Source: Acidobacteriota bacterium (GTDB lineage: Bacteria > Acidobacteriota > Holophagae > Acanthopleuribacterales > Acanthopleuribacteraceae). From it: 34,154 nucleotides of DNA. The DNA lies in the NCBI GenBank assembly GCA_020439745.1, contig JAGQSC010000007.1:1-34154 (forward strand), in the 5' to 3' direction. Shown in pieces: positions 3,089 through 32,301 of the stretch; position 1 is the first letter of the stretch, and each line of letters starts with the position of its first letter. A program made the position numbers and the translations under genes. The notes beneath the pieces were generated by a model, which ran no database searches, was not told the origin of the DNA, and was given only the letters and a program-made list of their open reading frames with translations.

Positions 3089-3904
3089 TCATGGAAAATT
3101 GACTCGCCAGACTTTTTTCTTTGGATTAAGCGGTGACTTTACATAATGAACAGGAATACGTTCGTCGGCATTTCTTCCAACTGTGTCTCCCTCTGGCAAT
3201 GGCTCACCCCGCAAGGCGAGATAGGCGAGCATGTCATAAGCTGTTTCTAGCGCCTCGTTCTCGGAGTTTTCGCCTGCCACCAGCAAGAGATCAGGCAGAT
3301 TGAGCTGCTCCATTCCCAAGCTGAGCACACTCAACCGGCCATCGGTTTCACGAGCGATGCTGATTCCAGACCACAACATCATCTTCGGTGTCACCCCTTC
3401 CTCGGCAGCAACGGACACGAAGAAATCTGAATCGTGGGTAGCGCCCGCATGACCCCAGTAGACGCCCACTGCGGGCGATGCCTTTATGACGGCTGCCAGA
3501 AGAGCCGTGAATCGCGACAGTCTGTCGATAGGTTTGGATTCAACAGTTCCATGAAATGTGACCATCAGATGGGCGTTATGGGTAGGGAGCGCCCAGTTGT
3601 TTCTGAATCTTGAAAGACTGAACTGAACACTATACTCGGCTTCTTCGTTGGGTACTGGAGCGGGAATCAACATCACAAAAGACTTCTCACCCGTACTCAT
3701 TTCAAGGGTAAGCACTTGTTTGTGTTCGTCTTTTTCGCTCGTTTTCAGGACGAGCTCAGACGAAGCGTATTGTCGATACGCGTTCTCCAGCGTTTCTGCA
3801 ACAGGAAGCGCCACGTTGGACAGCAATACGAACGCGTGATTGATCGGTGCATTTTCTTGCCTGCTCGCGTCTTTCTTGCCAAAGAGCCTACCTAGAATAC
3901 CCAC
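3089..3904 (-). CDS. DUF4261 domain-containing protein
   Basis: This is a 271-residue soluble protein. Residues of the type A-V-G-V-Y-W-G followed by a D-S-D-F-F segment, an M-L-W-S-G-I strand and a late alanine/leucine-rich helix are typical of the DUF4261 family, whose biochemical role is not established. No signal peptide or membrane segment is present. The chosen start is GTG at 3904, giving an N-terminus VGILGRLFGKK with GGGG six bases upstream. A longer reading from TTG at 3955 adds an unlikely hydrophobic leader. The gene is isolated, with repeat R1 copies on both sides. Confidence 0.7.
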   Translation of the reverse strand: MGILGRLFGKKDASRQENAPINHAFVLLSNVALPVAETLENAYRQYASSELVLKTSEKDEHKQVLTLEMSTGEKSFVMLIPAPVPNEEAEYSVQFSLSRFRNNWALPTHNAHLMVTFHGTVESKPIDRLSRFTALLAAVIKASPAVGVYWGHAGATHDSDFFVSVAAEEGVTPKMMLWSGISIARETDGRLSVLSLGMEQLNLPDLLLVAGENSENEALETAYDMLAYLALRGEPLPEGDTVGRNADERIPVHYVKSPLNPKKKVWRVNFP

Positions 3905-4171
3905 TTCACGCCCCAGTAAATTTGAAGATGCTAGCACAGCAGACAGCACAAACAACGCGTCAAATTTGGGGGCAGGTGAGCAGGGTCCCCCTGTGCGCGT
4001 TTCAAAAGGTCAAAGACCCTATATGCGAAATCACTGCACAGGAGAACCACTCATAAGTCTAGCGGAATTGATCTGCATCTGAAAACCAGAACGCTTTAGG
4101 TAGGTAGCATTTCACCAGTCGCTTCGATGTCTACCCGCCGCGATAGCCACCGTGATCGCCTGCCGTGGTGT

Positions 4172-8677: not shown

Positions 8678-10837
8678 ATGAAGCGGAGAACCATGCTTTC
8701 GTCCTTGGGCGCATTCCTTGCCGCCTGTACTGTTAAGAACAAGGGTCGCACCGCATCGGCAACCAAAGCAGTTGGATGGAACCACTGGACGCCTCTGCAA
8801 TCGCCGCTCGCCGGCCAAGCCACCTTTGACGTAGCGGATGAATTGCAAGTGCCCGAGGGATTTCGATATCGGGTTGTGGCCCGGTGGGGCGATACCTTTG
8901 GACCTCAGGGTCGAACCATCCGCGTCGGGTCCAACTGCGACTTCACCGGTTTGGTACCCATGGCCGACAAGCCAGGTGACTACTACTTGATCATCAACCA
9001 TGAAACGGTGTCCACACGTGCCTGGCTGGTGGGTGCCTCTGAATTCTTGGGGTACCAGCCGCCGGAGATCCACATCCACGGCAAAGAACGCACCTGCCAG
9101 ATCGGTGATCAGTCGTTCTCGTCGCTGGAAGTTGCATTGAGTGACATGAACGCGGCGGTCCGAGCATCGGTCGTAGAACTGGCGCACCAAATCATCGATG
9201 ATCATGGCGTGTCGATTCTGCATGTCCGAGAAGACAAAGACGGCATCCACGTGGTACCAGACTCGCCGCGCCACAAACGGATATCACCCGTATCCACGCG
9301 TTTTTCGGCACCGATTGCACCTCGGCCTTCCGCCTTTACTGGACCCGTTGCCTCCCTGTTGACGGAACCGATCCGAGGGACCATCTGCAACTGTTCGGGT
9401 GGTGTCACGCCCTGGGGCACCTTTCTTACTTGCGAAGAGAACATCGACGAACAGGTCCAGGAAGAGGTTCAACTGGATGGAAGCATGGATGCCCAGGAAC
9501 CGCACATCCGCTTCTATTGGAACGCGTCAGAACAAGCTGCCAAGTTGCCGACCCACATCTACGGTCTGGGTTCGTGCCTGGAGAAGCCGCTTGACGGCCG
9601 CACTTTTGGATGGGTCACGGAAATCAATCCGGACACGGGCCAGTTGACCAAGCACTCCTGTCTCGGTCGGTTCCGCCATGAGAATGCCGGACTGAGGGTG
9701 GTCGCCGGTCGGCCCCTTGAAGTGTTTATGGGAGACGATCGCCGCGGTGGCCACGTGTGGCGCTACCAGAGTCGCCAATCCGTGACCGACCCCGCCTCAC
9801 CATCCAATTCGGAACTCCTCGCCGATGGCACCCTCTATGTGGCTCAACTCAACGTCAATCAATCAGGCAAATGGATTCCACTTCGGCCAGAAACGCCTTT
9901 AGTCAAACCCCAACCTGAAATCACGGCCAAAGGGCTGATGTGGGTGCCTTCGATCAAAAAGGGTCGTGTGTCGGTGGGTGCAGGGGCCGAGATGACCAGC
10001 GACGCATGGTGCGCGGAGGTCGCCCAACATGCGGGTAAACCCTTTGAGGATTGCACCCTTGGTGACTTGGTCACCGCACCCAAGAAACAAGCACAGGCCA
10101 TTATCTTGATGGACGCCTTCGCCTTTGCCAACGCAGCTGGCGGGACGCCCTCGGCACGGCCTGAAGATGTGGAAGTCGCCCCCGACGGCTCCGTGTTTGC
10201 CGCCTTTACCAATGCGGATGGGTCCAGTGAAGGTTCACCTTCGGCATTGATCTTTCCAGAAGCGGTCGATGCCGTAAGCAGTCGGTACGGCTGCATCATG
10301 CGTTTGAAAAGCGAGGGGCCGGTGTTCACGTGGCAGAAATTCGTGCTGGCCAGTCACGCCAAGCACGGTTTTGCCTGCGCCGATAACCTGGCCTTTGACG
10401 CAGATGGTGACCTGTGGTTCACCACCGATGTCTCAACCGGAAAACTCAATCAAAACGTGGTCAAAACGAAGAGCAAACCCGGTGACGGTAGTTTCCAGGG
10501 CGTGTTCGGCAACAACTGTTTCTTTCGCGTGAAGCGGAGTGGGCCAGATGCCGGTCGACCACAATTGTTTGCCATGGCCCCCTGCGAAGCCGAATTAACA
10601 GGTCCCACATTCAGTCCCAGCGGCGATTCGCTCATCCTTTCGGTGCAGCACCCGGGCGAACTACATGGACCTTATCAAGGCAGCAAGGCTCGGCGTTCAT
10701 TCGAGTTTGAAACCGATGATGGATGGCTAACGCAAACTCGCCATATCCCACTGGGTAGTAATTTTCCGTCGAGCAACGTAGGTCAGGTTCCACGGGCAGT
10801 GGTGGTGTGCATTACACCAAGCAAAGACGTTTCATAA
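8678..10837 (+). CDS. PhoX-family (DUF839) exported phosphatase-like protein
   Basis: This is a 719-residue protein of the PhoX family, whose characterised members are Fe/Ca-dependent alkaline phosphatases exported by Tat. The N-terminus MKRRTMLSSLGAFLAAC combines an arginine pair, a hydrophobic stretch and a lipobox, so a Tat-exported lipoprotein is likely. The family motif NCSGGVTPWGTFLTCEEN begins near residue 238, with its cysteine at about 239 as a candidate metal ligand. Later hallmarks are VFMGDDRRGGHVWRYQS, a DGTLYVAQLN strand, PEDVEVAPDGSVFAAFTNAD, NLAFDADGDLWFTTD and, near the end, AELTGPTFSPSGDSLILSVQ followed by HPGE. The start has GAGG six bases upstream. Its 3' end overlaps the convergent cardiolipin synthase gene by six bases. 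Phosphatase activity and substrate are inferred from the family only. Confidence 0.85.
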   Translation: MKRRTMLSSLGAFLAACTVKNKGRTASATKAVGWNHWTPLQSPLAGQATFDVADELQVPEGFRYRVVARWGDTFGPQGRTIRVGSNCDFTGLVPMADKPGDYYLIINHETVSTRAWLVGASEFLGYQPPEIHIHGKERTCQIGDQSFSSLEVALSDMNAAVRASVVELAHQIIDDHGVSILHVREDKDGIHVVPDSPRHKRISPVSTRFSAPIAPRPSAFTGPVASLLTEPIRGTICNCSGGVTPWGTFLTCEENIDEQVQEEVQLDGSMDAQEPHIRFYWNASEQAAKLPTHIYGLGSCLEKPLDGRTFGWVTEINPDTGQLTKHSCLGRFRHENAGLRVVAGRPLEVFMGDDRRGGHVWRYQSRQSVTDPASPSNSELLADGTLYVAQLNVNQSGKWIPLRPETPLVKPQPEITAKGLMWVPSIKKGRVSVGAGAEMTSDAWCAEVAQHAGKPFEDCTLGDLVTAPKKQAQAIILMDAFAFANAAGGTPSARPEDVEVAPDGSVFAAFTNADGSSEGSPSALIFPEAVDAVSSRYGCIMRLKSEGPVFTWQKFVLASHAKHGFACADNLAFDADGDLWFTTDVSTGKLNQNVVKTKSKPGDGSFQGVFGNNCFFRVKRSGPDAGRPQLFAMAPCEAELTGPTFSPSGDSLILSVQHPGELHGPYQGSKARRSFEFETDDGWLTQTRHIPLGSNFPSSNVGQVPRAVVVCITPSKDVS

Positions 10838-20517: not shown

Positions 20518-21132
20518 ATGAAAAACTTGATTCCACTTTTCCTCAGCTTGATTTCAGGCTACATATTCGCTCAATGCGATGTTCAACCCAACCAGTTGGT
20601 GACCAACTGCGCCTTTGATTCTAATTTCACAGGATGGACAGCACCGGCTGGCAGAGGCATCCTAAGTCACAACAACGCGCAGGGTTCCAACGCTACGGGA
20701 TCACTGGCGTGTGTCGGACAAGCTGCCGGTGCATGGACATGGTGCCAACCGCAACAATGTATCGATGTGACGCCGAACACGATGTACGGTGCGGGATTTG
20801 ATTCTTGGTTGTTTTCACCCCCTAATGTACCTGGTTCCTATCCTCCATTTGTAGAAGTCCGCTATTTTGAGCACAGCAACAATACCTGTTCCATGTCTGT
20901 CGGCGGCTCCGGTGTCGCCACAGGTTCAGGTATGACAGTGCCCATGGGCGGCTTCGGCCAAACACAAGGCACCCTAACTTCGGGAGCCTCCACAGAGAGT
21001 ATTCTGATGGAGATCCGAATGCTGAATCAGGGTGGCAACGGCCCCAATGATGTGTTTACAGGTCTCTTTGACGACGTCTTTTTTGGCATTGGTATGACAC
21101 CCGTTGAACTGCAAAGTATGAGTGTCGAATAA
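20518..21132 (+). CDS. Secreted protein with CBM-like fold and PVEL C-terminus
   Basis: This is a 204-residue exported protein. MKNLIPLFLSLISGYIFA is a signal peptide with cleavage before QC. The mature part begins NQLVTNCAFDSNFTGWTAPA, the opening typical of carbohydrate-binding-module-like (CenC type) jelly rolls, and later has VEVRYFEHSNN and an ending FTGLFDDVFFGIGMTPVELQ then SMSVE-stop. Sugar binding is only suggested by the fold-like pattern. The tail TPVELQSMSVE matches the PVEL endings of 1745-2689 and 4432-4983. ATG has GAGG seven bases upstream. Its 3' end overlaps the next gene by 11 bases. Confidence 0.75.
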   Translation: MKNLIPLFLSLISGYIFAQCDVQPNQLVTNCAFDSNFTGWTAPAGRGILSHNNAQGSNATGSLACVGQAAGAWTWCQPQQCIDVTPNTMYGAGFDSWLFSPPNVPGSYPPFVEVRYFEHSNNTCSMSVGGSGVATGSGMTVPMGGFGQTQGTLTSGASTESILMEIRMLNQGGNGPNDVFTGLFDDVFFGIGMTPVELQSMSVE

Positions 21133-23389
21133 CGCAAGAATTCACACATATTTTTGGGCAGGCATGCTGTGTTGCATCACAGCATGCGGCCCTTCCTTAA
21201 AGCCGGACCACAAGTCAGTTGACCTGATTGAGTCTAATGGCATCGTGCAGCAACAAGTGCCCAGTTTGGTCTGGCATTTCGCCGATCGGCAAGAAGATCC
21301 AACCACGATTTGGACACCTTCAATGGCCCTTTCGGAGGCTGGGACACTACTCGTAGAGTCAGGACCGCCGACTCAGGGCGCTTTCCCAAGACCGCTGTTT
21401 GATGCCAGCCTTCTCCGTGCTGTCATCATTAGAGCCCGGGCCAGCGAACGATGTTCGATTTCAATCTCCGGCCTGAACCTTTCAATGCAGCGAATTCAAC
21501 TGGCTGAGCTAAATTTGCCAGCCTCTCGAGAGATGTTGAGCCTAAGCGTCAAAGTCGACTCCTTGGCCACATCATTCGTTAGCCAGATTGAGTTCCAAAC
21601 ACAAGACTGCTCTGTGGAAGTGGACTCGCTTCGATTCGTCTTTGATGACTCACACCCAACTAAAGTAGCTTGGCGCGACGTGGCTTTCAACGGCATTTAT
21701 CGCCATGCCATCAGAGCCCAAGACGATCCGATGCACCTTGACCTTGAGACCCACCAAGGTGACTGGCTGGATTTCGCAGTTGCATGGACAGATGACCGAA
21801 TTCCCACGTTCATCATTGAGTCCATCGACAGCCAGAACCGGGCTACACAAATTTGGCAATCGTCTCCCGCACAAGCCGACCAGTGGCACCCGTTCAAGGT
21901 GCACCTCCCGATTGGCATTGAGGCGTTGCGATTCAGAACCGAGCCCGTTGATGCCAATGCTTACTGGGCCACGCTTGCCTTAAGAAAAAAGCACAATCGA
22001 CCACAAATGCCCCTAAACGTTGTGCTGGTGATCATCGATACCTTGCGATCCGATCATTTAGGCCCCTATGGTTATGCCCGCGCTACGTCGCCCAACCTGA
22101 ACTTGCTGGCCAGCGAAGGAACGGTGTTCCTGAACACATATGCCGCATCCACTTGGACGAAGCCCTCAATTCCTTCGATTCTCACATCCGTTGAACCCCG
22201 TTTGTTGAACGGATTTGATCTTTATGGACAAGTTCCAGAGCATCTCACAACGATAGCCGAGGCCATGAAAGATGCAGGATTTGCTACTTTCAGTTCCTCA
22301 TCTGTGTCGTATTCGGGTCGTCAGAGTAATTTGGACCAAGGTGTCGACGTGATGGTGGAGCAATCGGCCTTAAATGTCGCAGCCGATTTGGCCCCAAGCA
22401 AGACGGCCCAGGCAGTCACCAACCAATTCGTGCCATGGCTTCAACAGCACGCAGATCAACCCTTCTTCGCGACACTGCACTTTATGGATCCACACTCACC
22501 GTATAAGACGTACCCGCCCCACTTGGGACTCTGGTCCCATGAAGGCTCCGAACGTGAGTTTGAAATGATGCTGCAACAAGTGGAACCCCACATCACTAAT
22601 GACGAACGAAAATATCGGCGTATGCCAGATGCTAACGAGCTGGCACAGGCCGGACTCGATCCACGTCAATTTGCGGCCTATGAAGAAAACTGGTACGACG
22701 AGTCAATACACGGAGCAGACGCCCAAATTGAACGTATTCGCAGCATTCTTCGACAACTGGAACTGGACAAACACACCATCATCGTTGTCATCAGCGACCA
22801 CGGTGAAGAGTTCCTCGACCACGGCTCCCATTTTCACGGCCACCACATCTTTGGAGAGCTTGCAAGAGTCCCTTGGGTGATCTTCGACCCGAGGCACCCT
22901 TTTGGAAAAACAATCTCTTCTGCGGTATCCCTTTTGGATGTCGCGCCCACTGTAACAAGTCTATGTGGTCTGCCCACGCCGGCCACATTTCGAGGCACCT
23001 CGCAAATGAGCGCTGTCGTATCCGGCACGGACGGGGAACGAAGCCAGCCCATCACCACAGAGCTTCAACCCAACAAGGGGAGATCAGGATCTTCGTTTCT
23101 TGCGCTGTTGGATGGAGAGTGGAAAGTCATGCGAACAACGTTGTCAACCAGCGAAACCCGTTGGACGTTATTCAACGTATTCAAAGACCCACTTGACCAA
23201 CATGATCTGGCTGATCAATATCCGACTCTGGTAAACCAACTACGCGCTAAGGTCTCTCTATGGGAAAACCACCTGGATCAGCTTGCTACTTCTTTTGAAA
23301 AAGCATCCCACCAACAGCTTATGGATCAAGGCTACAGCGAAGAAGAAATGGAACTACTTCGCAGCTTGGGGTATTTGGGTTATGAATAG
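21122..23389 (+). CDS. Lipoprotein sulfatase-like hydrolase (alkaline phosphatase superfamily)
   Basis: This is a 755-residue protein with a lipoprotein signal ending ITAC and an N-terminal beta-rich region of about 270 residues. A sulfatase-type domain follows from about residue 298. Metal-binding hallmarks are NVVLVIIDTLRSDHLGPYGY near 299-318 and VVISDHGEEFLDHGSHFHGH near 556-575. At the nucleophile site the sequence is STWTKPSIPSILTS: a threonine stands where formylglycine sulfatases have Cys or Ser, and the usual Arg is absent. A phosphoryl- or phosphonate-directed activity is therefore possible, and sulfatase activity is not assured. The start is GTG at 21122, overlapping the preceding gene; the next ATG at 21164 would cut the signal peptide. 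Confidence 0.85.
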   Translation: MSNNARIHTYFWAGMLCCITACGPSLKPDHKSVDLIESNGIVQQQVPSLVWHFADRQEDPTTIWTPSMALSEAGTLLVESGPPTQGAFPRPLFDASLLRAVIIRARASERCSISISGLNLSMQRIQLAELNLPASREMLSLSVKVDSLATSFVSQIEFQTQDCSVEVDSLRFVFDDSHPTKVAWRDVAFNGIYRHAIRAQDDPMHLDLETHQGDWLDFAVAWTDDRIPTFIIESIDSQNRATQIWQSSPAQADQWHPFKVHLPIGIEALRFRTEPVDANAYWATLALRKKHNRPQMPLNVVLVIIDTLRSDHLGPYGYARATSPNLNLLASEGTVFLNTYAASTWTKPSIPSILTSVEPRLLNGFDLYGQVPEHLTTIAEAMKDAGFATFSSSSVSYSGRQSNLDQGVDVMVEQSALNVAADLAPSKTAQAVTNQFVPWLQQHADQPFFATLHFMDPHSPYKTYPPHLGLWSHEGSEREFEMMLQQVEPHITNDERKYRRMPDANELAQAGLDPRQFAAYEENWYDESIHGADAQIERIRSILRQLELDKHTIIVVISDHGEEFLDHGSHFHGHHIFGELARVPWVIFDPRHPFGKTISSAVSLLDVAPTVTSLCGLPTPATFRGTSQMSAVVSGTDGERSQPITTELQPNKGRSGSSFLALLDGEWKVMRTTLSTSETRWTLFNVFKDPLDQHDLADQYPTLVNQLRAKVSLWENHLDQLATSFEKASHQQLMDQGYSEEEMELLRSLGYLGYE

Positions 23390-23434: not shown

Positions 23435-23470
23435 TGTTCGCAGTCGAACACAGATGTTCGAAAACGAACA
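23435..23470 (+). promoter_or_regulatory. Tandem palindromic activator sites (UAS)
   Basis: Two 16-bp palindromes, TGTTCG-CAGT-CGAACA (23435-23450) and TGTTCG-AAAA-CGAACA (23455-23470), have identical 6-base arms and centres 20 bases apart, two helical turns. They lie about 80-110 bases upstream of the sigma-54 promoter at 23546-23560. This position and spacing is typical of enhancer sites for NtrC-family activators. The operon encodes such an activator at 27969-29345. Confidence 0.8.
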
Positions 23471-23545
23471 GTCTACAACCGAACCGCAGGCAACTCAACA
23501 TGCGTAAATAACAAGGTCTAAACGTGTTGTATCGTTCCGTGATCA

Positions 23546-23560
23546 TGGCACCACATTTGC
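23546..23560 (+). promoter_or_regulatory. Sigma-54 promoter of the efflux/two-component operon
   Basis: TGGCAC (23546-23551), five bases and TTGC (23557-23560) match the -24/-12 consensus, with GG and GC exactly ten bases apart. Transcription should start near 23572. That leaves 7 bases before ATG 23579 and about 16 before ATG 23588, with GCGAGG in between, favouring the second ATG. Confidence 0.8.
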
Positions 23561-23587
23561 CCTTGCAAAGGGCGAGGTATGAAAACC

Positions 23588-24838
23588 ATGACCATGGACC
23601 GTCCGATTTCACAAGCCACAACCCACCGAAGACGCGCGAAACGAACTGTGACGGTTCTCGCCTGGGTCGGCCTTATTGCCGCATCCATTGCAGGACTTCG
23701 AACCAAACTCACGCCTTCTCTCAATGCTTCCAAGTTGCGCTTGGCGGTGGTCGAGACGGGTGATATCCAGGCAACCATTCAGGCAAGCGGCACGGTGATC
23801 CCGGAACAAGAAATTGAACTCACTAGTCCTTATGAGAGCACGTTGACTCGTATCATGGTGAAGCCCGGTGACGTGGTGCAACCAGGCACCATGATTGCCG
23901 AACTGGACGCCACACCCTATCGCCAACAATTGGCCAAGCTGCAGGAACAGATGCAGTTGAAAAAGAACGAAAAACAGTCGAAGCAATTAGCACTGGACAA
24001 AGAGGCCGGCGAACTGGCCGGACAACTTGAACTGAAACAAATCGAGTCTGAGTTGCAAAGTGCCAAACTCGCTCGTTACGAGACCCTTCAGGAATCAGGA
24101 CTCGTATCTCAAGACATATTTGCGGAGGTCCAGTTAGCGACACGAAAGGCCGAAATCGATCTGAGGCAGGTGCAGTTACAAGTCAGGAATGCTGAAGCTA
24201 GTCGACAAACAGAGCTTCATGCCATCGACCTTCAGATCCAGTTACTTCAGAACGACTTGAACGCTCAGGAAGACTTGTTGCAACAGGCACAAATTCGATC
24301 CGATCGGCCCGGTATGGTGACGATGGTCATGGAGTCGCTGGGACGTGCTGTTACTCGTGGCGAGAAGGTTGCCAGTATCGCGAACCTTGACCGTTACCGG
24401 ATCCGCGTCACCCTTTCAGACGTCTATTCCAGTCGGCTGCAATTAGGTCAATCGTCGGTCGTATCCATAATCGATCGCGACTACAAGGCAACCCTTGTCC
24501 AGATTCACCCCACCATCGAGAACGGCATCGTTTCGTTGATCCTGGCGTTGGATGAGCCACACGCGCCCGAGTTGAAGCCAAACCTCCGTGTAGAAGCACA
24601 GCTCGTGACCGGCTCCCGAGAACACACGCTCAAAGTGGCCAAAAGTCCGTTCATCACGGGTCCCGGGCCGTGGGATGTGTTTGTGGTTCAGGCTGGCAAA
24701 GCAGAAAAGCGGCAGGTTCAGGTGGGCCTCATCAATCATCGCTTTATGGAAATCGAACATGGGCTTGAAGCCGGAGAGCTAATCGTGCTGAGCGACATGT
24801 CTCGATACGAACACATGCAAGAAATTACCCTCAAATAA
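23588..24838 (+). CDS. HlyD-like periplasmic adaptor subunit of an ABC efflux system
   Basis: This is a 416-residue membrane-fusion protein. One N-terminal membrane segment (TVLAWVGLIAASIAGL) precedes the biotinyl-lipoyl-like domain (GDIQATIQASGTVIPEQEIE, SPYESTLTRIMVKPGDVVQ) and a long coiled-coil hairpin rich in Q, E, L and K (about residues 105-235). The second lipoyl half (IRSDRPGMVTMVMESLGRAV) and beta-barrel (YRIRVTLSDVYSSRLQLG) follow. It would bridge the inner-membrane transporter to an outer-membrane channel. Start 23588 suits the predicted transcript and GAGG site; 23579 is the longer alternative. It is the first gene of the sigma-54 operon. Confidence 0.88.
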   Translation: MTMDRPISQATTHRRRAKRTVTVLAWVGLIAASIAGLRTKLTPSLNASKLRLAVVETGDIQATIQASGTVIPEQEIELTSPYESTLTRIMVKPGDVVQPGTMIAELDATPYRQQLAKLQEQMQLKKNEKQSKQLALDKEAGELAGQLELKQIESELQSAKLARYETLQESGLVSQDIFAEVQLATRKAEIDLRQVQLQVRNAEASRQTELHAIDLQIQLLQNDLNAQEDLLQQAQIRSDRPGMVTMVMESLGRAVTRGEKVASIANLDRYRIRVTLSDVYSSRLQLGQSSVVSIIDRDYKATLVQIHPTIENGIVSLILALDEPHAPELKPNLRVEAQLVTGSREHTLKVAKSPFITGPGPWDVFVVQAGKAEKRQVQVGLINHRFMEIEHGLEAGELIVLSDMSRYEHMQEITLK

Positions 24839-24847
24839 GGAGTATTC

Positions 24848-25516
24848 ATGATCCAGTTGGAGCAAGTAGGCAAGGTTTATCGCACCGAAAAAATAGAGAC
24901 CCTGGCATTGGCCGACGTCAATATCTCAATCCCACAAGGTGCTTTTGTTTCCATCATGGGCCCTTCAGGCTGTGGAAAGAGCACGTTATTGAACATGATG
25001 GGGCTCTTAGATCAACCTTCCGACGGTGAAGTCCGCATTTCGGGCCAGAACATGTCGCACATGGGCGATGGTGATTTGGCCCGTTTTCGCAATCAACACA
25101 TTGGCTTTGTTTTTCAGAGCTTTCACCTGATACCCGATCTGAAAGTGATCGACAACGTGGAGATCCCTCTGCTTTACCGTTCGCTGACTCACAAAGAACG
25201 AACGCGTCTGGCACATGCAGCACTCGACCGCGTGGGTTTGTCATCGCGCGTGGATCATTTCCCCAGTCAACTCTCAGGGGGCCAGCAACAACGCGTGGCT
25301 ATTGCCCGCGCCATTGTGGGCGAGCCCAGCTACATTCTCGCCGACGAGCCCACTGGCAACCTAGACAGCCAGATGGGCGACCAAGTGATGGGGATTCTCG
25401 AAGGTCTGAACGAGGAACGTCAGGCGACCATTGTGATGGTTACTCATGACGAGGAAATGGCAAAACGCAGCCATCGCATCATCCGTCTTTTCGACGGTCG
25501 GCAGGTAGATGCATGA
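24848..25516 (+). CDS. MacB/LolD-type ABC transporter ATPase
   Basis: This is a 222-residue nucleotide-binding subunit. Walker A GPSGCGKST is at residues 38-46, the Q-loop FVFQSFHL near 88, the signature LSGGQQQR at 142-149, Walker B YILADEPTGNLDS from 162 and the switch histidine in VTHDEEM. Size and motifs match the MacB/LolD/FtsE group that powers membrane-to-periplasm transport. AAGGAG lies just upstream of ATG. It overlaps the next permease gene as ATGA and is the motor of the efflux operon. Confidence 0.93.
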   Translation: MIQLEQVGKVYRTEKIETLALADVNISIPQGAFVSIMGPSGCGKSTLLNMMGLLDQPSDGEVRISGQNMSHMGDGDLARFRNQHIGFVFQSFHLIPDLKVIDNVEIPLLYRSLTHKERTRLAHAALDRVGLSSRVDHFPSQLSGGQQQRVAIARAIVGEPSYILADEPTGNLDSQMGDQVMGILEGLNEERQATIVMVTHDEEMAKRSHRIIRLFDGRQVDA

Positions 25517-26763
25517 TTCTCAACGCGATCAAAATAGCATTAAAAGTGTTAGCCAGGCGGAAGTTCTTCACGTTCATCAGCCTGTTTGGAACTTCATTCA
25601 CACTGATTGTGCTGGTGGTGGTTGCAGCATTGCTGGACATTTTCATACGCCCCGGCGGCCCGGAACGAAACATGCCTCGCATGCTGGGTTTGTACCAGTG
25701 CGTCATGAAAAGTGAAGGCGGGAACTCAACCTGGTCGGGCTCACCGGGATACCGCTTTCTTTCGCGACACGTGAAGACCATGCAGTCACCTGAGAAGATC
25801 ACGATCTTTTCGAGTCACAATACGGTATCCATTTACGAAGGCACGGACAAATACAACATCGGTCTGCGTCATACCGATGCCACATATTGGGAGGTTTTGG
25901 ACTTCAGATTCATTGAAGGGGTCCCCTTTGACGCGCATCACGAGCAGCAAGCCAGCCAGGTGGCAGTCATTAACCAACAAACGAAGGAACGATTCTTTGG
26001 CTCAGGCTCGGCGTTGGGTGAAACGATAGAAATTGACGGGCAAACCTTCGAGGTGATTGGTGTGGTTGAAAATGTGCCAGCCACCAATCGGTCCGCCTAT
26101 GCAGACGTGTGGGTGCCCATCCCTACCAAAAAGAACAGAGACTACCTGGACGCGATGATGGGTGGCTTTAATGCGTTGCTGTTGGCCCGCTCTCGGTCTG
26201 ATTTCCCAGCGATCAAACGGGAGTATGCGGCAGTGCTGCAACAGATCGATTGGCCTGATCCGCATGGCGACTTTGAGATGTTGGGCGGCGTGGATACGCC
26301 CTTGGAAGTGATGGCCCGCAAGTTCTTCAACGAAACTGAAGAAGGCGAGGTGAGTACGGGCGTTCTGACAGCGGTCATGAGTCTCGCGGCTTTGATTTTC
26401 ATGTTACTTCCTTCGATGAACCTGACCAACATCAATCTCAGTCGGATCATGGAACGCGCATCTGAGATTGGCATTCGCAAATCATTCGGTGCGAATTCAA
26501 GGCACCTAGTGCTGCAGTTCGTGATTGAAAACTTGGTACTTACGGCCATTGCTGGTCTGATCGGGTTTCTCGGTGCCTATGTGATTCTTTGGTCCATCAC
26601 CCAGTCTGATTTGTTTGCCTACGCCACGTTTTCACCCAACTTCCGCGTGTTTGCCGCTGGCCTTTTATTGATCCTGGTTTTCGGAACCATGTCCGGTGTC
26701 TATCCGGCCTGGAAAATGGCGCGCATGCACCCCGTCTATGCACTCAAAGGAGGCCAGTCATGA
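25513..26763 (+). CDS. ABC transporter permease, MacB/FtsX type (first)
   Basis: This is a 416-residue permease. A first membrane helix (FGTSFTLIVLVVVAALLDIF) is followed by a large periplasmic MacB-PCD domain (GETIEIDGQTFEVIGVVENV is typical), then three C-terminal FtsX helices: VLTAVMSLAALIFMLLPSMN, LVLTAIAGLIGFLGAYVILW and FRVFAAGLLLILVFGTMSGV. The block ERASEIGIRKSFGANSRHLV before the second C-terminal helix is the FtsX signature. It starts within the ATPase stop (ATGA) and ends overlapping the next permease the same way, so the two permeases probably assemble as a heterodimer. Confidence 0.88.
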   Translation: MILNAIKIALKVLARRKFFTFISLFGTSFTLIVLVVVAALLDIFIRPGGPERNMPRMLGLYQCVMKSEGGNSTWSGSPGYRFLSRHVKTMQSPEKITIFSSHNTVSIYEGTDKYNIGLRHTDATYWEVLDFRFIEGVPFDAHHEQQASQVAVINQQTKERFFGSGSALGETIEIDGQTFEVIGVVENVPATNRSAYADVWVPIPTKKNRDYLDAMMGGFNALLLARSRSDFPAIKREYAAVLQQIDWPDPHGDFEMLGGVDTPLEVMARKFFNETEEGEVSTGVLTAVMSLAALIFMLLPSMNLTNINLSRIMERASEIGIRKSFGANSRHLVLQFVIENLVLTAIAGLIGFLGAYVILWSITQSDLFAYATFSPNFRVFAAGLLLILVFGTMSGVYPAWKMARMHPVYALKGGQS

Positions 26764-27947
26764 TTCGTCATATCATCAAATCGGTTTGGTACCGCAAGAA
26801 GACAAATGCACTGATTGCGTCGGAACTGTTCGTGGCGTTCCTGGTTCTGTTTGGCCTACTTTCGACCTTAATTTACTTCAAGGTCACGTTTCATCGCACC
26901 CTTGGATTTGACTACAGTGACACGTGGGTGGTCCAAATTGATCGAGGTGGAGAATGGCGCCCAGAGATGGCATCTACCATCAAGCAATTGATTCTGGCTT
27001 GTCGTGGCATGGATCAGGTGACAGCATGTGAACCTTTAGCGATGGTGCCATACGGTGGATCGACTTGGACGAGTACGATCACGACGAGAACAGGTGAGCG
27101 ATCGGCGATCCATAACAGCGTAGGCGACGGCATTGCCGATATGATGAACATTCACTTGGTATCCGGTCGTTGGTTCGGCCCGGAAGATGACCGCGACGAT
27201 TGGACGCCCGTCATCATCAATCAACGAGTCGCCGAGGCCGTATTTGGAGACGAGAACCCGCTTGGCCAGTTCTTGGATCATTTGGATAAAGAGGATGAAC
27301 GAAAGAGGACCGTGGTTGGGGTATTCGATGATTTTCGCCAGCATGGAGAGTTCAGTGCGCCCACGGACGTGGTGTTCATGCGTTACCCGCTACTTGAATC
27401 TTCCGAAGGTGCATTGCGAAACTTTGTGGTCAAGATCAAGCCCGACACCACCGCCGCGTTTGAACCTGAGCTCGTGACGCAATTACAAAAATTTGCGCCC
27501 GGATGGCAGTTCTTTGTCGAGCCTTTGGATCAGATGCGCAGCGAAAAGCACAAAGAAGTGCTGATCCCGCTTTCGATACTGGGCGTCGTCGCCGGATTTC
27601 TCCTGCTTATGGTGGCGCTGGGCATTCTTGGTGTGTTGTGGCAGAACGTCACACAGCGTCGTCAGGAATTAGGCCTCAAACGAGCGCTGGGTGCTAGCAA
27701 ATCCGATGTTCGCTGGCAAATCGTGCTGGAGCTCATGGTGCTTACCGGGTTCGCGGTAATTGCTGGTTCCTTTGTAGCCGTGCAGGTCCCCATCACCGGC
27801 CTTTTCGGATTTGTAGATGGATTCGTGTTTGCTTGGGGATTACTGGCAGCTGCGACGGTACTGTTTCTGCTCACCTTCTTGTGCACGCTTTACCCCAGTT
27901 GGTTGAGCACGCGCATTCGACCCGCAGAAGCATTGCACTATGATTGA
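26760..27947 (+). CDS. ABC transporter permease, MacB/FtsX type (second)
   Basis: This is a 395-residue permease with the same plan as its neighbour. The N-terminal helix is SELFVAFLVLFGLLSTLIYF. The periplasmic domain includes NQRVAEAVFGDENPLGQFLD and VVGVFDDFRQHGEFS. C-terminal helices are PLSILGVVAGFLLLMVALGI, LVLTGFAVIAGSFVAVQVPI and FAWGLLAAATVLFLLTFLCT. RRQELGLKRALGASKSDVRW is the FtsX signature. The end, LSTRIRPAEALHYD, is typical of MacB permeases. The two permeases differ strongly in sequence, supporting a heterodimer. Confidence 0.88.
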   Translation: MIRHIIKSVWYRKKTNALIASELFVAFLVLFGLLSTLIYFKVTFHRTLGFDYSDTWVVQIDRGGEWRPEMASTIKQLILACRGMDQVTACEPLAMVPYGGSTWTSTITTRTGERSAIHNSVGDGIADMMNIHLVSGRWFGPEDDRDDWTPVIINQRVAEAVFGDENPLGQFLDHLDKEDERKRTVVGVFDDFRQHGEFSAPTDVVFMRYPLLESSEGALRNFVVKIKPDTTAAFEPELVTQLQKFAPGWQFFVEPLDQMRSEKHKEVLIPLSILGVVAGFLLLMVALGILGVLWQNVTQRRQELGLKRALGASKSDVRWQIVLELMVLTGFAVIAGSFVAVQVPITGLFGFVDGFVFAWGLLAAATVLFLLTFLCTLYPSWLSTRIRPAEALHYD

Positions 27948-27968
27948 AAGGCACTGGTAGAATTCGCC

Positions 27969-29345
27969 ATGGCAACAGTTAAGCCTTCCATACTCGTGGT
28001 TGACGATGATGCTTCAGTCACTATGTCTCTTTCCATGCTCTTGAAGCGTGAAGGATTCGCTGTTCATACAGCACATCAAGCAGCTGAGGCGTGCGAGATA
28101 ATCGAACACCACAAAGTGGACTTGGTGATTCAAGACATGAACTTCACACAAGAAACCACGGGTATCGAGGGCATGCAACTATTGGCCGAATTGAAAGCAC
28201 ACAGCCCCGATCTTCCCATCATCTTGATGACAGCATGGGGTTCTATAGACTTGGCTGTCCGCGGTATGAAAGCTGGCGCCCGTGATTTCATCACAAAGCC
28301 ATGGGACAATCGCCAGTTGATGAGTGTCGTACGGACGTCCTTGTGCCTAAATGCGACACATCCAACCACTCAGATGACCCGAGAAGAGTTGGACGAACAC
28401 TACGACTTCAACACTATCGTCGGTGAAGATCCACAGCTGTTAAGGGTTTTGGAAACTATAGGTAGGGTAGCGGCTACAGACGCATCCGTGTTGGTGCTTG
28501 GCGAGAGCGGAACAGGGAAAGAGGCCGTCGCCCAAGCTATCCACGCCAACAGCAAAAGGCGGTCAAAGCCCTTCATCAAAGTGAATTTGGGCGGTGTGTC
28601 GTCAGCGCTGTTTGAAAGCGAAATGTTTGGACACGTTCGGGGTGCCTTCACCGATGCAAAAACAGATCGACTAGGTCGTTTCCAAATGGCCCATGGTGGA
28701 TCGATCTTCCTAGACGAGATCGGTGATTTGGACCTCGCTTCCCAGGTGAAGCTGTTGCGTGTATTGAGCGAACGTAACTATGAGCCCCTGGGCTCATCAA
28801 AATCGGTCCGCGCCGATGTGCGTGTGGTAGCGGCTACTAACCGAGACCTGGCCGCCATGGTAGCCGAAGGCTCCTTTCGTGAAGATCTTCTGTATCGGAT
28901 CAATCTGATCACCGTCAACATGCCGCCTCTGCGAAAACGCAGCGGAGACATCGCGTTGTTGGCACGACACTTCTTAGCCAATGCGGCCCAATCACATGGG
29001 CTGGGACAAACGCAACTCGACGGGTCTGCGGTGAGTTGGTTGAAACAACAAACATGGCCGGGCAACATTCGTGAACTGAAACAAACCATGGAGCGCGTGG
29101 TCCTGATGACCGGTAAGACCCATATAGGCGTTCAGGACTTGGAGGCCGTAGCTTCATCGCACGGGACCACATCTAAGCCGGGCCTGCCCACCGTCGGTGA
29201 GATGACACTCGACGAAATTGAGATCGCCATGATCGACAAGGCTCTGAAGCACCACGACGGGAACGTGTCGCGAGCCGCTAAGTCATTGGGGCTCAGCCGA
29301 GCCGCGCTTTACAGGCGTATCGAAAAGCACGGACTACACATTTGA
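27969..29345 (+). CDS. NtrC-family sigma-54-dependent response regulator
   Basis: This is a 458-residue regulator. The receiver domain (residues about 7-125) has the acidic pocket VDDD, phospho-acceptor Asp56 in LVIQDMNF, Thr88 and Lys110. The AAA+ domain has Walker A GESGTGKE (178-185), Walker B IFLDEIGDL (246-254) and, at 225-230, GAFTDA in place of the canonical GAFTGA loop that contacts sigma-54. A Fis-type helix-turn-helix ends the protein (NVSRAAKSLGLSRAALYRRI). It should activate sigma-54 promoters when phosphorylated by the adjacent kinase. The sigma-54 promoter and palindromes upstream of this operon are its likely target. Confidence 0.92.
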   Translation: MATVKPSILVVDDDASVTMSLSMLLKREGFAVHTAHQAAEACEIIEHHKVDLVIQDMNFTQETTGIEGMQLLAELKAHSPDLPIILMTAWGSIDLAVRGMKAGARDFITKPWDNRQLMSVVRTSLCLNATHPTTQMTREELDEHYDFNTIVGEDPQLLRVLETIGRVAATDASVLVLGESGTGKEAVAQAIHANSKRRSKPFIKVNLGGVSSALFESEMFGHVRGAFTDAKTDRLGRFQMAHGGSIFLDEIGDLDLASQVKLLRVLSERNYEPLGSSKSVRADVRVVAATNRDLAAMVAEGSFREDLLYRINLITVNMPPLRKRSGDIALLARHFLANAAQSHGLGQTQLDGSAVSWLKQQTWPGNIRELKQTMERVVLMTGKTHIGVQDLEAVASSHGTTSKPGLPTVGEMTLDEIEIAMIDKALKHHDGNVSRAAKSLGLSRAALYRRIEKHGLHI

Positions 29346-30658
29346 AACTGCACCAGCGCCTGGTCCTCTACCTGTGTGCCATCCATCTGGGCCTGGCGAT
29401 GATCGTTTGGTTTACCTTGAAGGACAATCCCTATTGGTTTTTTCCTTTGGAGGGTGTCTTCATTGTCTCACTGTTGGTAGGCGCTAAACTCTCAAGAGCC
29501 ATCCTGGAGCCGCAACAATTTCTACACGCCAGCCTCGACCAATTGCGAGAAGGTGAATTCGCAACCCGTTATCAACCCAGCGGAAATCCCGACCTCAATG
29601 CATTGGTAGAAACCTACAATCGCATGGTGGACTCGCTTCGCGAGGAACGTTTGAAACTGGGAGAGCAACGCGACTTTCTCGACAAGCTGTTGCATGCTTC
29701 TCCGGCCGCCGTGTTTGTATTCGATTTTGACGGCCGTATTTCCCATGTCAACCCAAGCGCAAGCGATCTACTACGACAGCAACCGGATGCAGTCATCGGA
29801 AGATCGCTGGACCAACTGGGTTTGGGTTGGACAAACGAGCTCAGCCAGCTTGGTTTGGACGTACCCAAGATTATTCATGCACAAGGCAGCCGACGGTTGC
29901 GCTGTGTCCGGTCACAGTTTAAGGATCGTGGATTTACGCGCGCGTTCATCATGGTCGAAGAGCTCACCGAAGAGCTTCGCGAACGCGATCGCATGGCCTA
30001 CGAAAAACTGCTCCGCATGATGGCCCACGAGATTAACAACACGGTCGGTGCCACCAACTCATTGCTGGAATCATGTCTCACGTTCGGGGAATCACTACAA
30101 GGCAACGACCAAGATGATTTTCGTACGTCCATTGAAACCATCATCACACGGCATGAACATCTGAACCGGGTCATGCGAGAATTCGCAGCGGTCTTAAAAG
30201 TGCCTGAGCCCAGATGTCAGGAAACAGACATCCATCAGCTCGTCAAAGACGTTCATCGTTTGGTGAGTGCGGCCTGTGAACGGACAGGAATCGAGTGGCG
30301 CTGGCATTGCCCCGATAGTCTGCCCGTGCTGTCCATGGACCAGCACTTAATGGAACAAGTCCTTATGAACATCGTCAAGAACGCCATGGAAGCCATTGGT
30401 GAGCGGGGCGCGATCGATGTTCACCTGATGACTCAGTCCGGTAGCGTAACATTAGTGATTGAAGACTCCGCAGGCGCCCTAACAGCGGAGGTCAAGAACC
30501 AACTATTCAGCCCATTCTTCAGTACGAAAGCCAGTGGGCGCGGCATTGGCTTGACCCTGATCCAAGAAATCCTCGTGCAACATGGCTTCGAGTACAGTCT
30601 GGAAGGCGAACCGGGTCGTTCTACCCGCTTCACCATACATTTCCCTATTCCTACATAA
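29342..30658 (+). CDS. Membrane sensor histidine kinase, NtrB-like
   Basis: This is a 438-residue kinase. Two membrane helices (LVLYLCAIHLGLAMIVWFTL and FFPLEGVFIVSLLVGAKLS) are close together, so there is almost no periplasmic sensor loop. A HAMP-like linker (about 52-105), a PAS-type domain (about 112-205), and a HisKA segment with phospho-acceptor His229 in MMAHEINNTVG follow. The ATPase domain has N-box NIVKNAMEAI (Asn347), EDSAG (Asp375), LFSPFFSTK and the G-x-G box GRGIGL. It starts at TTG 29342, overlapping the regulator stop as TTGA. It most likely phosphorylates the regulator encoded just upstream. Confidence 0.92.
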   Translation: MKLHQRLVLYLCAIHLGLAMIVWFTLKDNPYWFFPLEGVFIVSLLVGAKLSRAILEPQQFLHASLDQLREGEFATRYQPSGNPDLNALVETYNRMVDSLREERLKLGEQRDFLDKLLHASPAAVFVFDFDGRISHVNPSASDLLRQQPDAVIGRSLDQLGLGWTNELSQLGLDVPKIIHAQGSRRLRCVRSQFKDRGFTRAFIMVEELTEELRERDRMAYEKLLRMMAHEINNTVGATNSLLESCLTFGESLQGNDQDDFRTSIETIITRHEHLNRVMREFAAVLKVPEPRCQETDIHQLVKDVHRLVSAACERTGIEWRWHCPDSLPVLSMDQHLMEQVLMNIVKNAMEAIGERGAIDVHLMTQSGSVTLVIEDSAGALTAEVKNQLFSPFFSTKASGRGIGLTLIQEILVQHGFEYSLEGEPGRSTRFTIHFPIPT

Positions 30659-30789
30659 CGATCGAACAGCCCTCGAATCTCGATGGATGCCAATCCACCC
30701 TCACAACTCGGGTGCGCGGCAACAGTGAAACAAAAAGGGAGCCCTCACGTTAACTCAAGTGCGATATGCTCACATGGAGGGATTCAATC

Positions 30790-32301
30790 ATGCGCGAGTG
30801 GAAAAGCTGGTTGGGACCGGGCTTGATTGTAGCCATGGCTGTCATTGCTATCCACGTCATTTGGGCACCCGGTTACGGCGTTTTTCGCGATGAGCTCTAC
30901 TACATCGCCAGCATAGATCACCTGGACTGGGGATACGTAGATCACCCACCCATGGTAGCCTGGCTCGCTGCTGTCTGGGGTTCGATCTTTGGGAAATCCT
31001 ACGTGGGTTTCCGACTACTCACCGCCCTGATGGCAGGTGCAACAGTCTATGTCACCAGCCTGATCGTCAAACGTTTGGATGGAGGTTGGTACGCCCAATT
31101 ACTGGCCACAGTCTGCGTGGGACTTGCGCCCATCTATTTGTCCCTCTTCAGCATCTACTCCATGAACGCATTGGACCTCTTGGTGTGGTGCATCCTGCTC
31201 TATTTGGTTGTGTCCGTCCTCCAAACCAAAGATCCCAGCTATTGGCTTTGGTTTGGCGCGGTTTGTGGCGTCGGGTTGTTAAACAAAATTAGTGTGGGTT
31301 TTCTTTGTGTCGGTCTTCTCGTGGGCATGCTGGTGCAACGACAGTTCCAACACGCCCGTTCACCCAAACTTTGGATCGGCGCGGCAATCGCTGCGGCCCT
31401 ATTCACCCCTCACCTTTTGTGGCAAATCAACCACGGTTGGCCCACTGCTGAGTTCATCGAAAACGCGACTAACTTCAAAAACATTCAATTTGCACCGCAT
31501 ACCTACATACAAGCGCAGGTGATGATGTTAAATCCGCTCACCGCCCCGTTATGGATAGGCGGACTGATCATGCTCTTTCTGCGCAAGTCATGGTCAGCGT
31601 TCAGACCTCTGGCGTGGGCCTACCTTGCCACGTTGATCCTAATGTTGACCCAAGCGGCCAAGCCCTATTATCTCGCCCCGATCTACCCAATCCTATTCGC
31701 AGCTGGCGCCACTTACGTAGAAACTTGGTCCCGTCATTGGTTACGCATGCTCGCGTTTGCAACGGTGGTACTTTCTGGGATCGCCCTGATGCCGCTTGCC
31801 AAACCCATTCTCGATGAAGACCGTTACGTGCGTTATGCCGAGCGACTGGGCGCAGCACCCAATACAGAGGAACGCCACGAACTAGGACGGCTACCCCAGT
31901 TCTTTGCCGACATGCACGGTTGGCGCGAGCTGGCGGAAACCGTTGCCCAGGTGTATGGCGACCTGGCGCCGGACGATCAGGCTGAATGCTGTATCTACGC
32001 CAACAACTATGGCGATGCAGGTGCCATTGATTATTTCCGTGGTGTGTACCCTCTTCCACCTGTGGTTTCAGGACACAACAGCTACTGGTTATGGGGGCCA
32101 GGCAGTTGCAGTGGGCAAGTACTCATCATTATCGGCGGCGAGGAGGCAGATCACCTTCAGACGTTCGAGCAGGTGGAACCCGCAGCCATCTTTACCTGCG
32201 TCGACTGCATGCCCTATGAAAACAACCAAGTCATTTGGCTGGCCCGCAACCCTAAGCTCCCCGTCCCCGAACTATGGCCACGCGTCAAACACTACGACTG
32301 A
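30790..32301 (+). CDS. Glycosyltransferase family 39-like membrane protein
   Basis: This is a 503-residue multi-spanning protein with about ten membrane helices, of the PMT/ArnT-like GT39 superfamily that uses lipid-linked sugars. Hallmarks are the first periplasmic loop with FRDELYYIA (acidic pair at residues 34-35) and the motif GYVDHPPMVAWLA (49-61), both characteristic of the family, and a C-terminal soluble tail containing a YANNYGDAGAIDYFRG block. ATG at 30790 has GGAGGG eight bases upstream; an earlier ATG at 30766 lacks such a site. The acceptor is unknown. It stands alone, about 130 bases after the kinase gene and on the same strand. Confidence 0.85.
   Translation: MREWKSWLGPGLIVAMAVIAIHVIWAPGYGVFRDELYYIASIDHLDWGYVDHPPMVAWLAAVWGSIFGKSYVGFRLLTALMAGATVYVTSLIVKRLDGGWYAQLLATVCVGLAPIYLSLFSIYSMNALDLLVWCILLYLVVSVLQTKDPSYWLWFGAVCGVGLLNKISVGFLCVGLLVGMLVQRQFQHARSPKLWIGAAIAAALFTPHLLWQINHGWPTAEFIENATNFKNIQFAPHTYIQAQVMMLNPLTAPLWIGGLIMLFLRKSWSAFRPLAWAYLATLILMLTQAAKPYYLAPIYPILFAAGATYVETWSRHWLRMLAFATVVLSGIALMPLAKPILDEDRYVRYAERLGAAPNTEERHELGRLPQFFADMHGWRELAETVAQVYGDLAPDDQAECCIYANNYGDAGAIDYFRGVYPLPPVVSGHNSYWLWGPGSCSGQVLIIIGGEEADHLQTFEQVEPAAIFTCVDCMPYENNQVIWLARNPKLPVPELWPRVKHYD

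Follow-up and report, generated by a model that had tools for sequence, protein, structure and literature searches.

How is an exporter operon controlled when it encodes its own sigma-54 activator? The question is raised by a six-gene locus at positions 23435–30658 of a 34,154-nucleotide stretch of contig JAGQSC010000007.1 from an Acidobacteriota bacterium (the whole stretch is called the window below). The genes encode a periplasmic adaptor, an ATP-binding cassette (ABC) ATPase, two permeases, an NtrC-type response regulator and a histidine kinase, and are preceded by twin palindromes and a sigma-54-type promoter, through which the initial annotation, made from the sequence alone, supposed the regulator to activate its own operon. 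Cross-phylum comparison, the presence of rpoN and the uniqueness of the palindrome pair support this proposal, and we consider it highly probable, on these comparative grounds, that the locus is a MacAB-like exporter operon whose own two-component system switches it on through the twin palindromes and the sigma-54 promoter. Papers are cited by PMC number, in each case for the passages retrieved from them.

Twin palindromes and a sigma-54 promoter upstream of the operon

Two palindromes, TGTTCG-CAGT-CGAACA at 23435–23450 and TGTTCG-AAAA-CGAACA at 23455–23470, lie 20 bp apart start to start and are the predicted enhancer sites for binding of the regulator. The second is separated by 75 bp from a -24/-12 element on the + strand (TGGCAC-CACAT-TTGC, 23546–23560), from which the transcript would be expected to start at about 23572. 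All three elements had been annotated initially at these positions, and all three are exact matches to their patterns, TGTTCG-N4-CGAACA and TGGCAC-N5-TTGC.

The single-palindrome pattern with up to two mismatches has four matches in the window, a number reached by 12 of 100 shuffles, and is not significant. The promoter motif with up to one mismatch has seven matches against a shuffle mean of 3.35; because 3 of 100 shuffles also reach seven, it is modest evidence when taken alone, and it is the pair that carries weight. A genome-wide search for palindrome pairs, suggested as a check in the initial annotation, returned a single occurrence at no more than 3 mismatches in 24 positions in the 5.1-Mb genome, and none of the reversed control pattern. 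Exact single palindromes occur at four places in the genome, two being the operon's own pair and the others lying at C63:301961 and C63:548332. The genome also contains one match to rpoN, and its 29 matches to the sigma-54 activator domain include 22 strong ones (at least 136 bits).

The two solitary exact sites, with no homologue of the six genes around that at C63:548332 (L044), would fit a different reading, namely that the palindromes bind another factor, such as a repressor, and that the encoded regulator acts elsewhere. We consider this very unlikely, given that the site and the regulator family co-occur across phyla, at fixed spacing and beside sigma-54 promoters.

Conservation of gene order and control sites

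Genome contigs were scanned for the regulator, and the best 80 loci were combined with relatives and the window into a set of 100 loci. The full order adaptor–ATPase–permease 1–permease 2–regulator–kinase is found in 55 of the 100, one of which (L066) repeats another (L026), and is identical in genomes G003 and G001, the latter belonging to the same genus as the window's genome. As judged from record titles, the carriers include Acidobacteriota, Latescibacterota, KSB1, Ignavibacteria and Kapabacteria, as well as Oxalobacteraceae (among them Massilia and Duganella), Kangiellaceae, Arenimonas, Colwellia, Rhodocytophaga and Bacteroides luti. Among 99 regulators with at least 50% identity and at least 5.5 kb of upstream sequence, 81 are preceded by all four transport genes and followed by the kinase, and 13, nine of them from Bacteroidota, are preceded by none of the transport genes and retain the kinase.

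At E ≤ 1e-135, seeds included, the regulator was detected in 23 of 396 sampled genomes of its own phylum and in 27 of 245 from the family to which Massilia belongs. Among 369 genomes from the class of Arenimonas it was detected in one, the seed itself; at 1e-130 it was detected in 5 of 397 genomes of the Arenimonas order (seeds included). Occurrence is thus patchy, and transfer between lineages may be one explanation.

Upstream regions were compared for 53 operons with enough upstream sequence, from which 31 representatives sharing less than 80% regulator identity were taken. Rows excluded over the course of the site comparisons were duplicates with shared sequence (5, then 9), L066, L054 and L072 (short upstream sequence), and L157, L165, L198, L206 and L211, which lacked a scorable upstream region. 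Twin TGTYCG-N4-CGRACA sites 20 bp apart start to start are present in 16 of the 31 representatives; the corresponding count in shuffle controls was zero in 97 of 100 and one in the other three, with a maximum of two at any spacing. In 19 of the 31, the best-scoring pair deviates at no more than 5 of 24 positions, a quality reached by 0.06% of shuffled upstream regions.

A wider scoring accepted pairs at spacings of 19–21 bp with at most 5 mismatches, and -24/-12 elements with at most one mismatch within 20–150 bp below them. By this measure a pair is present in 47 of the 58 upstream regions that could be scored in the first set, in 8 of 15 from an additional set of Acidobacteriota loci and in 14 of 18 from an additional set of loci of the Oxalobacteraceae and the Xanthomonad order. 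The -24/-12 element follows the pair at 38 of 47, 5 of 8 and 14 of 14 of these, respectively, vs. 0.85%, 0% and 1% of shuffled windows. Sites ahead of exporter genes, with ordered spacing and a -24/-12 element below, were found in Acidobacteriota, Oxalobacteraceae, the Xanthomonad order, Latescibacterota (L049) and Bacteroidota.

The Bacteroidota provided a separate check. Six genomes, five of them with exporter-unlinked regulators, contain 30 exact sites, compared with 8 for the reversed control. At 7 of the 18 site loci examined, a -24/-12 element (at most one mismatch) was found within 20–200 bp, always at 44 or 45 bp, whereas 0.8 would be expected from the density of the element. The genes behind these seven promoters encode adaptors (L232, L237 and L242), ATPases (L235 and L243) and outer-membrane efflux proteins (L248 and L249; Pfam OEP, from two Bacteroidota genomes); L242 is the operon of L118 itself and hence not an unlinked case. 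Sites at L246 and L247 stand ahead of adaptors and are followed by an imperfect -12. All nine loci have a second, weaker site 19–20 bp upstream, with 1–5 of 12 mismatches. The other nine of the 18 sites have no such promoter, and nothing homologous to the six genes turned up there.

A second exporter operon of the window's own genome (L222, G000:C10:48000-60000) has the same six-gene order, more distant proteins and a regulator with a GAFTGA loop. Two CGGACA-N2-TGTCCG palindromes, read by eye, lie 21 bp apart at 741–775 of that stretch, with a half-site that is the main operon's in reversed orientation. A -24/-12-like element with one mismatch (903–917) lies 127 bp downstream of the palindromes, where a chance match is expected.

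Distance between enhancer and promoter

The pair-to-promoter distances analysed are 39–45, 49, 52–55, 60–66, 72–78, 86–89, 95, 109 and 129–130 bp. Those of Proteobacteria cluster at about 42, 53, 64, 75 and 86 bp, in steps of about 11 bp. The discovery set (n = 38) gave R = 0.75 with a best period of 11.1 bp, and the whole test set (n = 26 of 33) gave V = 0.52 (p = 0.0002). After test members had been thinned by their similarity to the discovery set and among themselves, p was 0.008 at 85% (n = 15), 0.025 at 80% (n = 13) and 0.098 at 75% (n = 9). Of 31 phylogenetically independent pairs, 12 show a difference of at least 6 bp, with a mean cosine of 0.44 (p = 0.011), the period used here coming partly from the same operons. 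The promoter-to-gene distance, taken as a control, likewise showed an R of 0.57, a value that we ascribe to a cluster of alike operons.

The Oxalobacteraceae/Xanthomonad part of the test set (17 of 18 usable) gave V = 0.85, and the Acidobacteriota part (9 of 15 usable) gave V = -0.12 (p = 0.79). Universal helical phasing is not sustained by the latter value; for the Proteobacteria, these distances make helical phasing likely.

Genes and junctions of the exporter

The adaptor gene (23579–24838) encodes a protein of the HlyD/MacA type (PF13437; RND_mfp TIGR01730 above cut-off), and the ATPase gene (24848–25516) one of the LolD/MacB/DarD type (PF00005; the top NCBIfam models, DarD and LolD, are both below cut-off). 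Permease 1 (25513–26763) and permease 2 (26760–27947) each consist of MacB_PCD and FtsX domains by Pfam, permease 1 being without a fused ATPase. Together with the regulator and kinase genes, all on the + strand, these form one run in the order initially annotated, as open reading frames and Pfam matches confirm. Overlaps of 4 nt, said to be present at most junctions, occur at three of the five (ATPase/permease 1, permease 1/permease 2 and regulator/kinase), and gaps of 9 nt and 21 nt separate adaptor from ATPase and permease 2 from regulator. For the adaptor, a start at 23594 (MDRPI) appears more likely than that at 23579, because an MDR-like start motif is present in 42 of 88 orthologous adaptors (absent from the other 46), ATGGA is aligned in the five correctly oriented rows of the promoter alignment (row L156x, on the wrong strand, being disregarded), and translation from 23579 would begin only about 7 nt after the expected transcript start.

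For permease 1, MacB is the nearest match both in a profile search (5nik, 1.3e-35) and in a fold search (5lil, 1.6e-20), in which LolCDE, HrtBA, YbbAP and BceAB-S appear lower; the top full-length fold matches have moderate TM-scores of 0.43–0.61 by query length. Adaptor, ATPase and MacB_PCD/FtsX permeases are the components of a MacAB-type exporter. The ATPase is not fused to the permease as in MacB and has its own gene, and the system is thus MacB-like, not MacB. A search confined to the operon found no outer-membrane channel gene, and the exporter probably pairs with a TolC-type channel encoded elsewhere. The darobactin exporter DarCD was rejected as an identification, with DarC at 81 of 450 bits and DarD at 247.8 of 375 bits, below the NCBIfam equivalog cut-offs.

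Efflux of a toxic or envelope-active compound would fit these components. The pump might instead export a product of the cell (a lipid, lipoprotein or peptide) or do envelope work, with the regulator reporting the state of the envelope, a reading favoured by the DarD and LolD scores of the ATPase, sub-threshold as they are, and by the varied mechanical work that type VII ABC systems do (PMC7828314). The nearness of permease 1 to MacB in sequence and structure speaks against it weakly, since MacB substrates vary, and so does the presence of the same sites before outer-membrane efflux genes in Bacteroidota. We regard a role other than drug efflux as possible, with chances well short of even.

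A GAFTDA loop in the regulator

The regulator (27969–29345, + strand) was assigned as an NtrC-type protein from Pfam, alignment and a motif census: PF00158 and PF00072 are clearly above their cut-offs and PF02954 is also above, giving a receiver, an AAA+ sigma-54 activator domain and a Fis-type helix-turn-helix. GAFTDA stands in place of GAFTGA in its loop (residues 225–230, 28641–28658). The variant is present in 117 of 121 relatives with at least 50% identity (the exceptions being one GAFTSA, two GAFTGA and one GAYTDA) and in 15 of 16 more distant regulators.

Single changes in GAFTGA mostly lower or abolish activity, according to a 2011 survey (PMC3162934), and VfmH, which has GAFTDA, did not pull down RpoN, the effect of the change being left open there (PMC10714721). 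Both reports would be in line with a loop that disables sigma-54 use and a -24/-12 match that is fortuitous. We judge this extremely unlikely: NorR G266D, which carries the same substitution, shows constitutive activity and can form open complexes together with sigma-54 polymerase, and -24/-12 elements below the sites occur far above shuffles and at ordered distances. The NorR change releases the protein from control by its N-terminal domain (PMC2941729), and a study in D. vulgaris places GAFTDA among the variants that would retain activity (PMC4641369). Given the promoters found here, it is likelier by far that the GAFTDA regulator works with sigma-54.

GAFTDA was also considered as a marker of exporter regulators and rejected, as the genome has two GAFTDA regulators without an exporter and one exporter operon with GAFTGA. 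The two former, L126 (G000:C8:167954) and L140 (G000:C58:120670), have no exporter in the 12-kb stretches around them.

The kinase and its signal

The kinase gene (29342–30658, + strand, TTG start) encodes a transmembrane hairpin, HAMP, PAS and HATPase domains, as judged from Pfam, hydropathy, conservation and an AlphaFold model; the HAMP match is just below cut-off, and the PAS domain (residues 112–156 by Pfam) is modelled with good confidence. The kinase had been described as having almost no periplasmic loop, and this is indeed the case, with 15 residues between the two transmembrane segments by hydropathy and a one-residue break between helices 3–28 and 30–70 in the model (mean pLDDT 80, pTM 0.49).

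The first two hydrophobic segments are 1–18 residues apart in all 115 family kinases. Two segments are present in 85 of these (median gap 6), and 29 show a third peak, which in most cases falls within the PAS region; the kinase of L161 has four segments, one of them an extra N-terminal segment. Glu37 in the second transmembrane segment (29450–29452) is conserved in 113 of the 115 kinases, His15 in the first (29384–29386) in 96, Pro57 in 106 and Ser43 in 93. A more distant clade has the hairpin in 12 of 14 kinases and a single segment in two. That a hairpin kinase marks all exporter operons of this kind is not so clear, since these two and the L222 kinase differ. The latter has hydrophobic peaks at 12–28 and 92–108, 63 residues apart, with an uncertain open reading frame start.

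The initial annotation proposed that the signal may be read in the membrane or through the transporter, which is plausible and is strengthened by the hairpin and by the glutamate of the second transmembrane segment. Intramembrane-sensing kinases paired with BceAB-type exporters have the same topology (PMC7828314), and HssS senses heme itself, the exporter not being needed (PMC11237747). Exporter-coupled, direct and PAS sensing are each possible for the operon kinase.

Two of these modes can be put more sharply. The PAS domain may sense a cytoplasmic cue, with the hairpin as a mere anchor and the exporter outside signalling, and the retention of the hairpin in kinases without adjacent exporter genes (e.g., L110, L111, L114, L119, L121, L123 and L124) accords with this, as does the confidently modelled PAS domain itself; conservation of Glu37, His15 and Ser43 to the extent seen exceeds the needs of an anchor. 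We place this reading somewhat below an even chance. The operon may otherwise be a Gram-negative counterpart of Bce modules, in which the hairpin kinase would read the state or substrate of its own exporter via Glu37 (with His15 and Ser43) and be coupled to a GAFTDA regulator and to a sigma-54 promoter with the twin enhancer at a fixed helix face; the whole would have spread over several phyla as a portable circuit. This composite proposal is tentative, and we think it rather doubtful as a whole.

Proposed mechanism and its weighing

The mechanism that we propose for the autoregulated exporter operon is as follows. On perceiving a signal within or at the inner membrane, the hairpin kinase would phosphorylate the regulator, which would then sit on the two palindromes upstream of the -24/-12 element, assemble its AAA+ ring and reach the sigma-54 polymerase through a DNA loop. 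The whole operon, including the regulator's own gene, would be activated in positive feedback, and GAFTDA would be a natural loop variant still active on sigma-54. The adaptor, the ATPase and the two MacB-type half-permeases would form the exporter produced. A switch-like response, as suggested initially, is something we only infer, because an operon that is transcribed from a sigma-54 promoter alone and encodes its own activator also needs basal expression.

The upstream neighbour (21122–23389, + strand) encodes a 755-aa sulfatase-family protein and ends about 190 bp before the adaptor; its transcript could supply basal read-through into the operon.

Several observations weigh against the proposed autoregulation. 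No basal promoter above chance was found for the regulator genes, the sigma-70-like sequence at 27917–27944 being one of three in the region, where shuffles average 7.7. The pair has at least 6 of 24 mismatches at spacing 20 in 12 of the 31 representatives, and 20 of the 58 first-set loci are without pair and promoter at the cut-offs used, so the gene order appears more widespread than the recognisable control region. Three of these 20 loci are paralogous (L032, L035 and L042); the other 17 include Kangiellaceae (L045, L046 and L092), Algicola (L058), Colwellia (L083), Ignavibacteria (L055), KSB1 (L069), Kapabacteria (L078 and L084), Rhodocytophaga (L086) and Bacteroides luti (L122), and some of them, e.g., L045, L055 and L084, have a single good site. 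At L027 (G004:C319:2000-16500), an orthologous regulator–kinase pair with 54% and 42% identity stands without exporter genes in the 14.5 kb fetched. The GAFTDA loop, finally, is neither specific to exporter operons nor needed for them.

Elsewhere in the window, the gene downstream of the operon (30766–32301) encodes a PMT_2-family glycosyltransferase-like membrane protein, and nothing ties it to the operon. Other genes encode a PhoX alkaline phosphatase (8678–10837), a Fic-family protein (283–1452) and a DUF4261 protein (3089–3955).

Significance

If the autoregulated exporter model is right, the activator, the site that it binds and the targets that it probably has can be named from sequence comparison alone for a widespread group of exporter operons, of a kind that a 2025 survey tied to sigma-54 by promoter motif only (PMC12316311). 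The operon would also offer a Gram-negative system for exporter-coupled sensing, which has been studied in Firmicutes, and a natural series of enhancer–promoter distances for the study of DNA looping. It bears on the question raised by VfmH of whether GAFTDA activators use sigma-54 (PMC10714721), and the recurrence of genes and control sites in distant bacteria makes the signal and the sensing mode testable.

Literature searches bearing on the operon found no study of it, most subscription journals being outside their coverage, and the retrieved parts of PMC12502800 and PMC9723704 contain nothing about it. As far as these searches reach, a family marked by this enhancer, this variant of activator and this type of kinase is newly described here, and its parts are of known kinds.

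Comparison with known systems

MacAB-TolC and other type VII ABC systems share with the operon an adaptor, an ATPase and MacB_PCD plus FtsX permeases, and the nearest solved structures are those of MacB. Differences are the separate ATPase gene, the two different half-permeases and the lack of a channel gene in the operon. A link to sigma-54 is shared with the FtsX-like ABC permeases of the 2025 survey, a motif scan in which sigma-54 promoters were tied to COG0577/COG1136 systems, which was called the first evidence. That survey kept only GAFTGA activators, so that the GAFTDA family would drop out, and in its retrieved passages neither an enhancer site nor a cognate kinase is given for those permeases (PMC12316311).

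NtrC, ZraR and AtoC, acting with sigma-54, have in common with the regulator the domain order, rpoN, a -24/-12 promoter and paired upstream palindromes. The regulator differs from them in its GAFTDA loop and in its predicted target, its own exporter operon, and its best 25 NCBIfam scores are all below cut-offs.

Bce modules have an OmpR-type regulator and a single large permease of the BceB type. The operon has instead an NtrC-type regulator with sigma-54, an adaptor and two MacB-type half-permeases; it may work in a Bce-like manner and is not classed as a Bce module. The BceAB-BceRS-type modules of Firmicutes, including BraSR and VirRS, share with it the combination of an ABC exporter and a kinase without an extracytoplasmic domain (PMC7828314, PMC10295115), and BceAB-S is among the lower fold matches of permease 1. 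In HssRS-HrtBA, too, a MacB-like exporter is paired with a kinase whose sensing takes place at the membrane, HssS having an extracellular domain of 133 residues whereas the operon kinase has none (PMC11237747).

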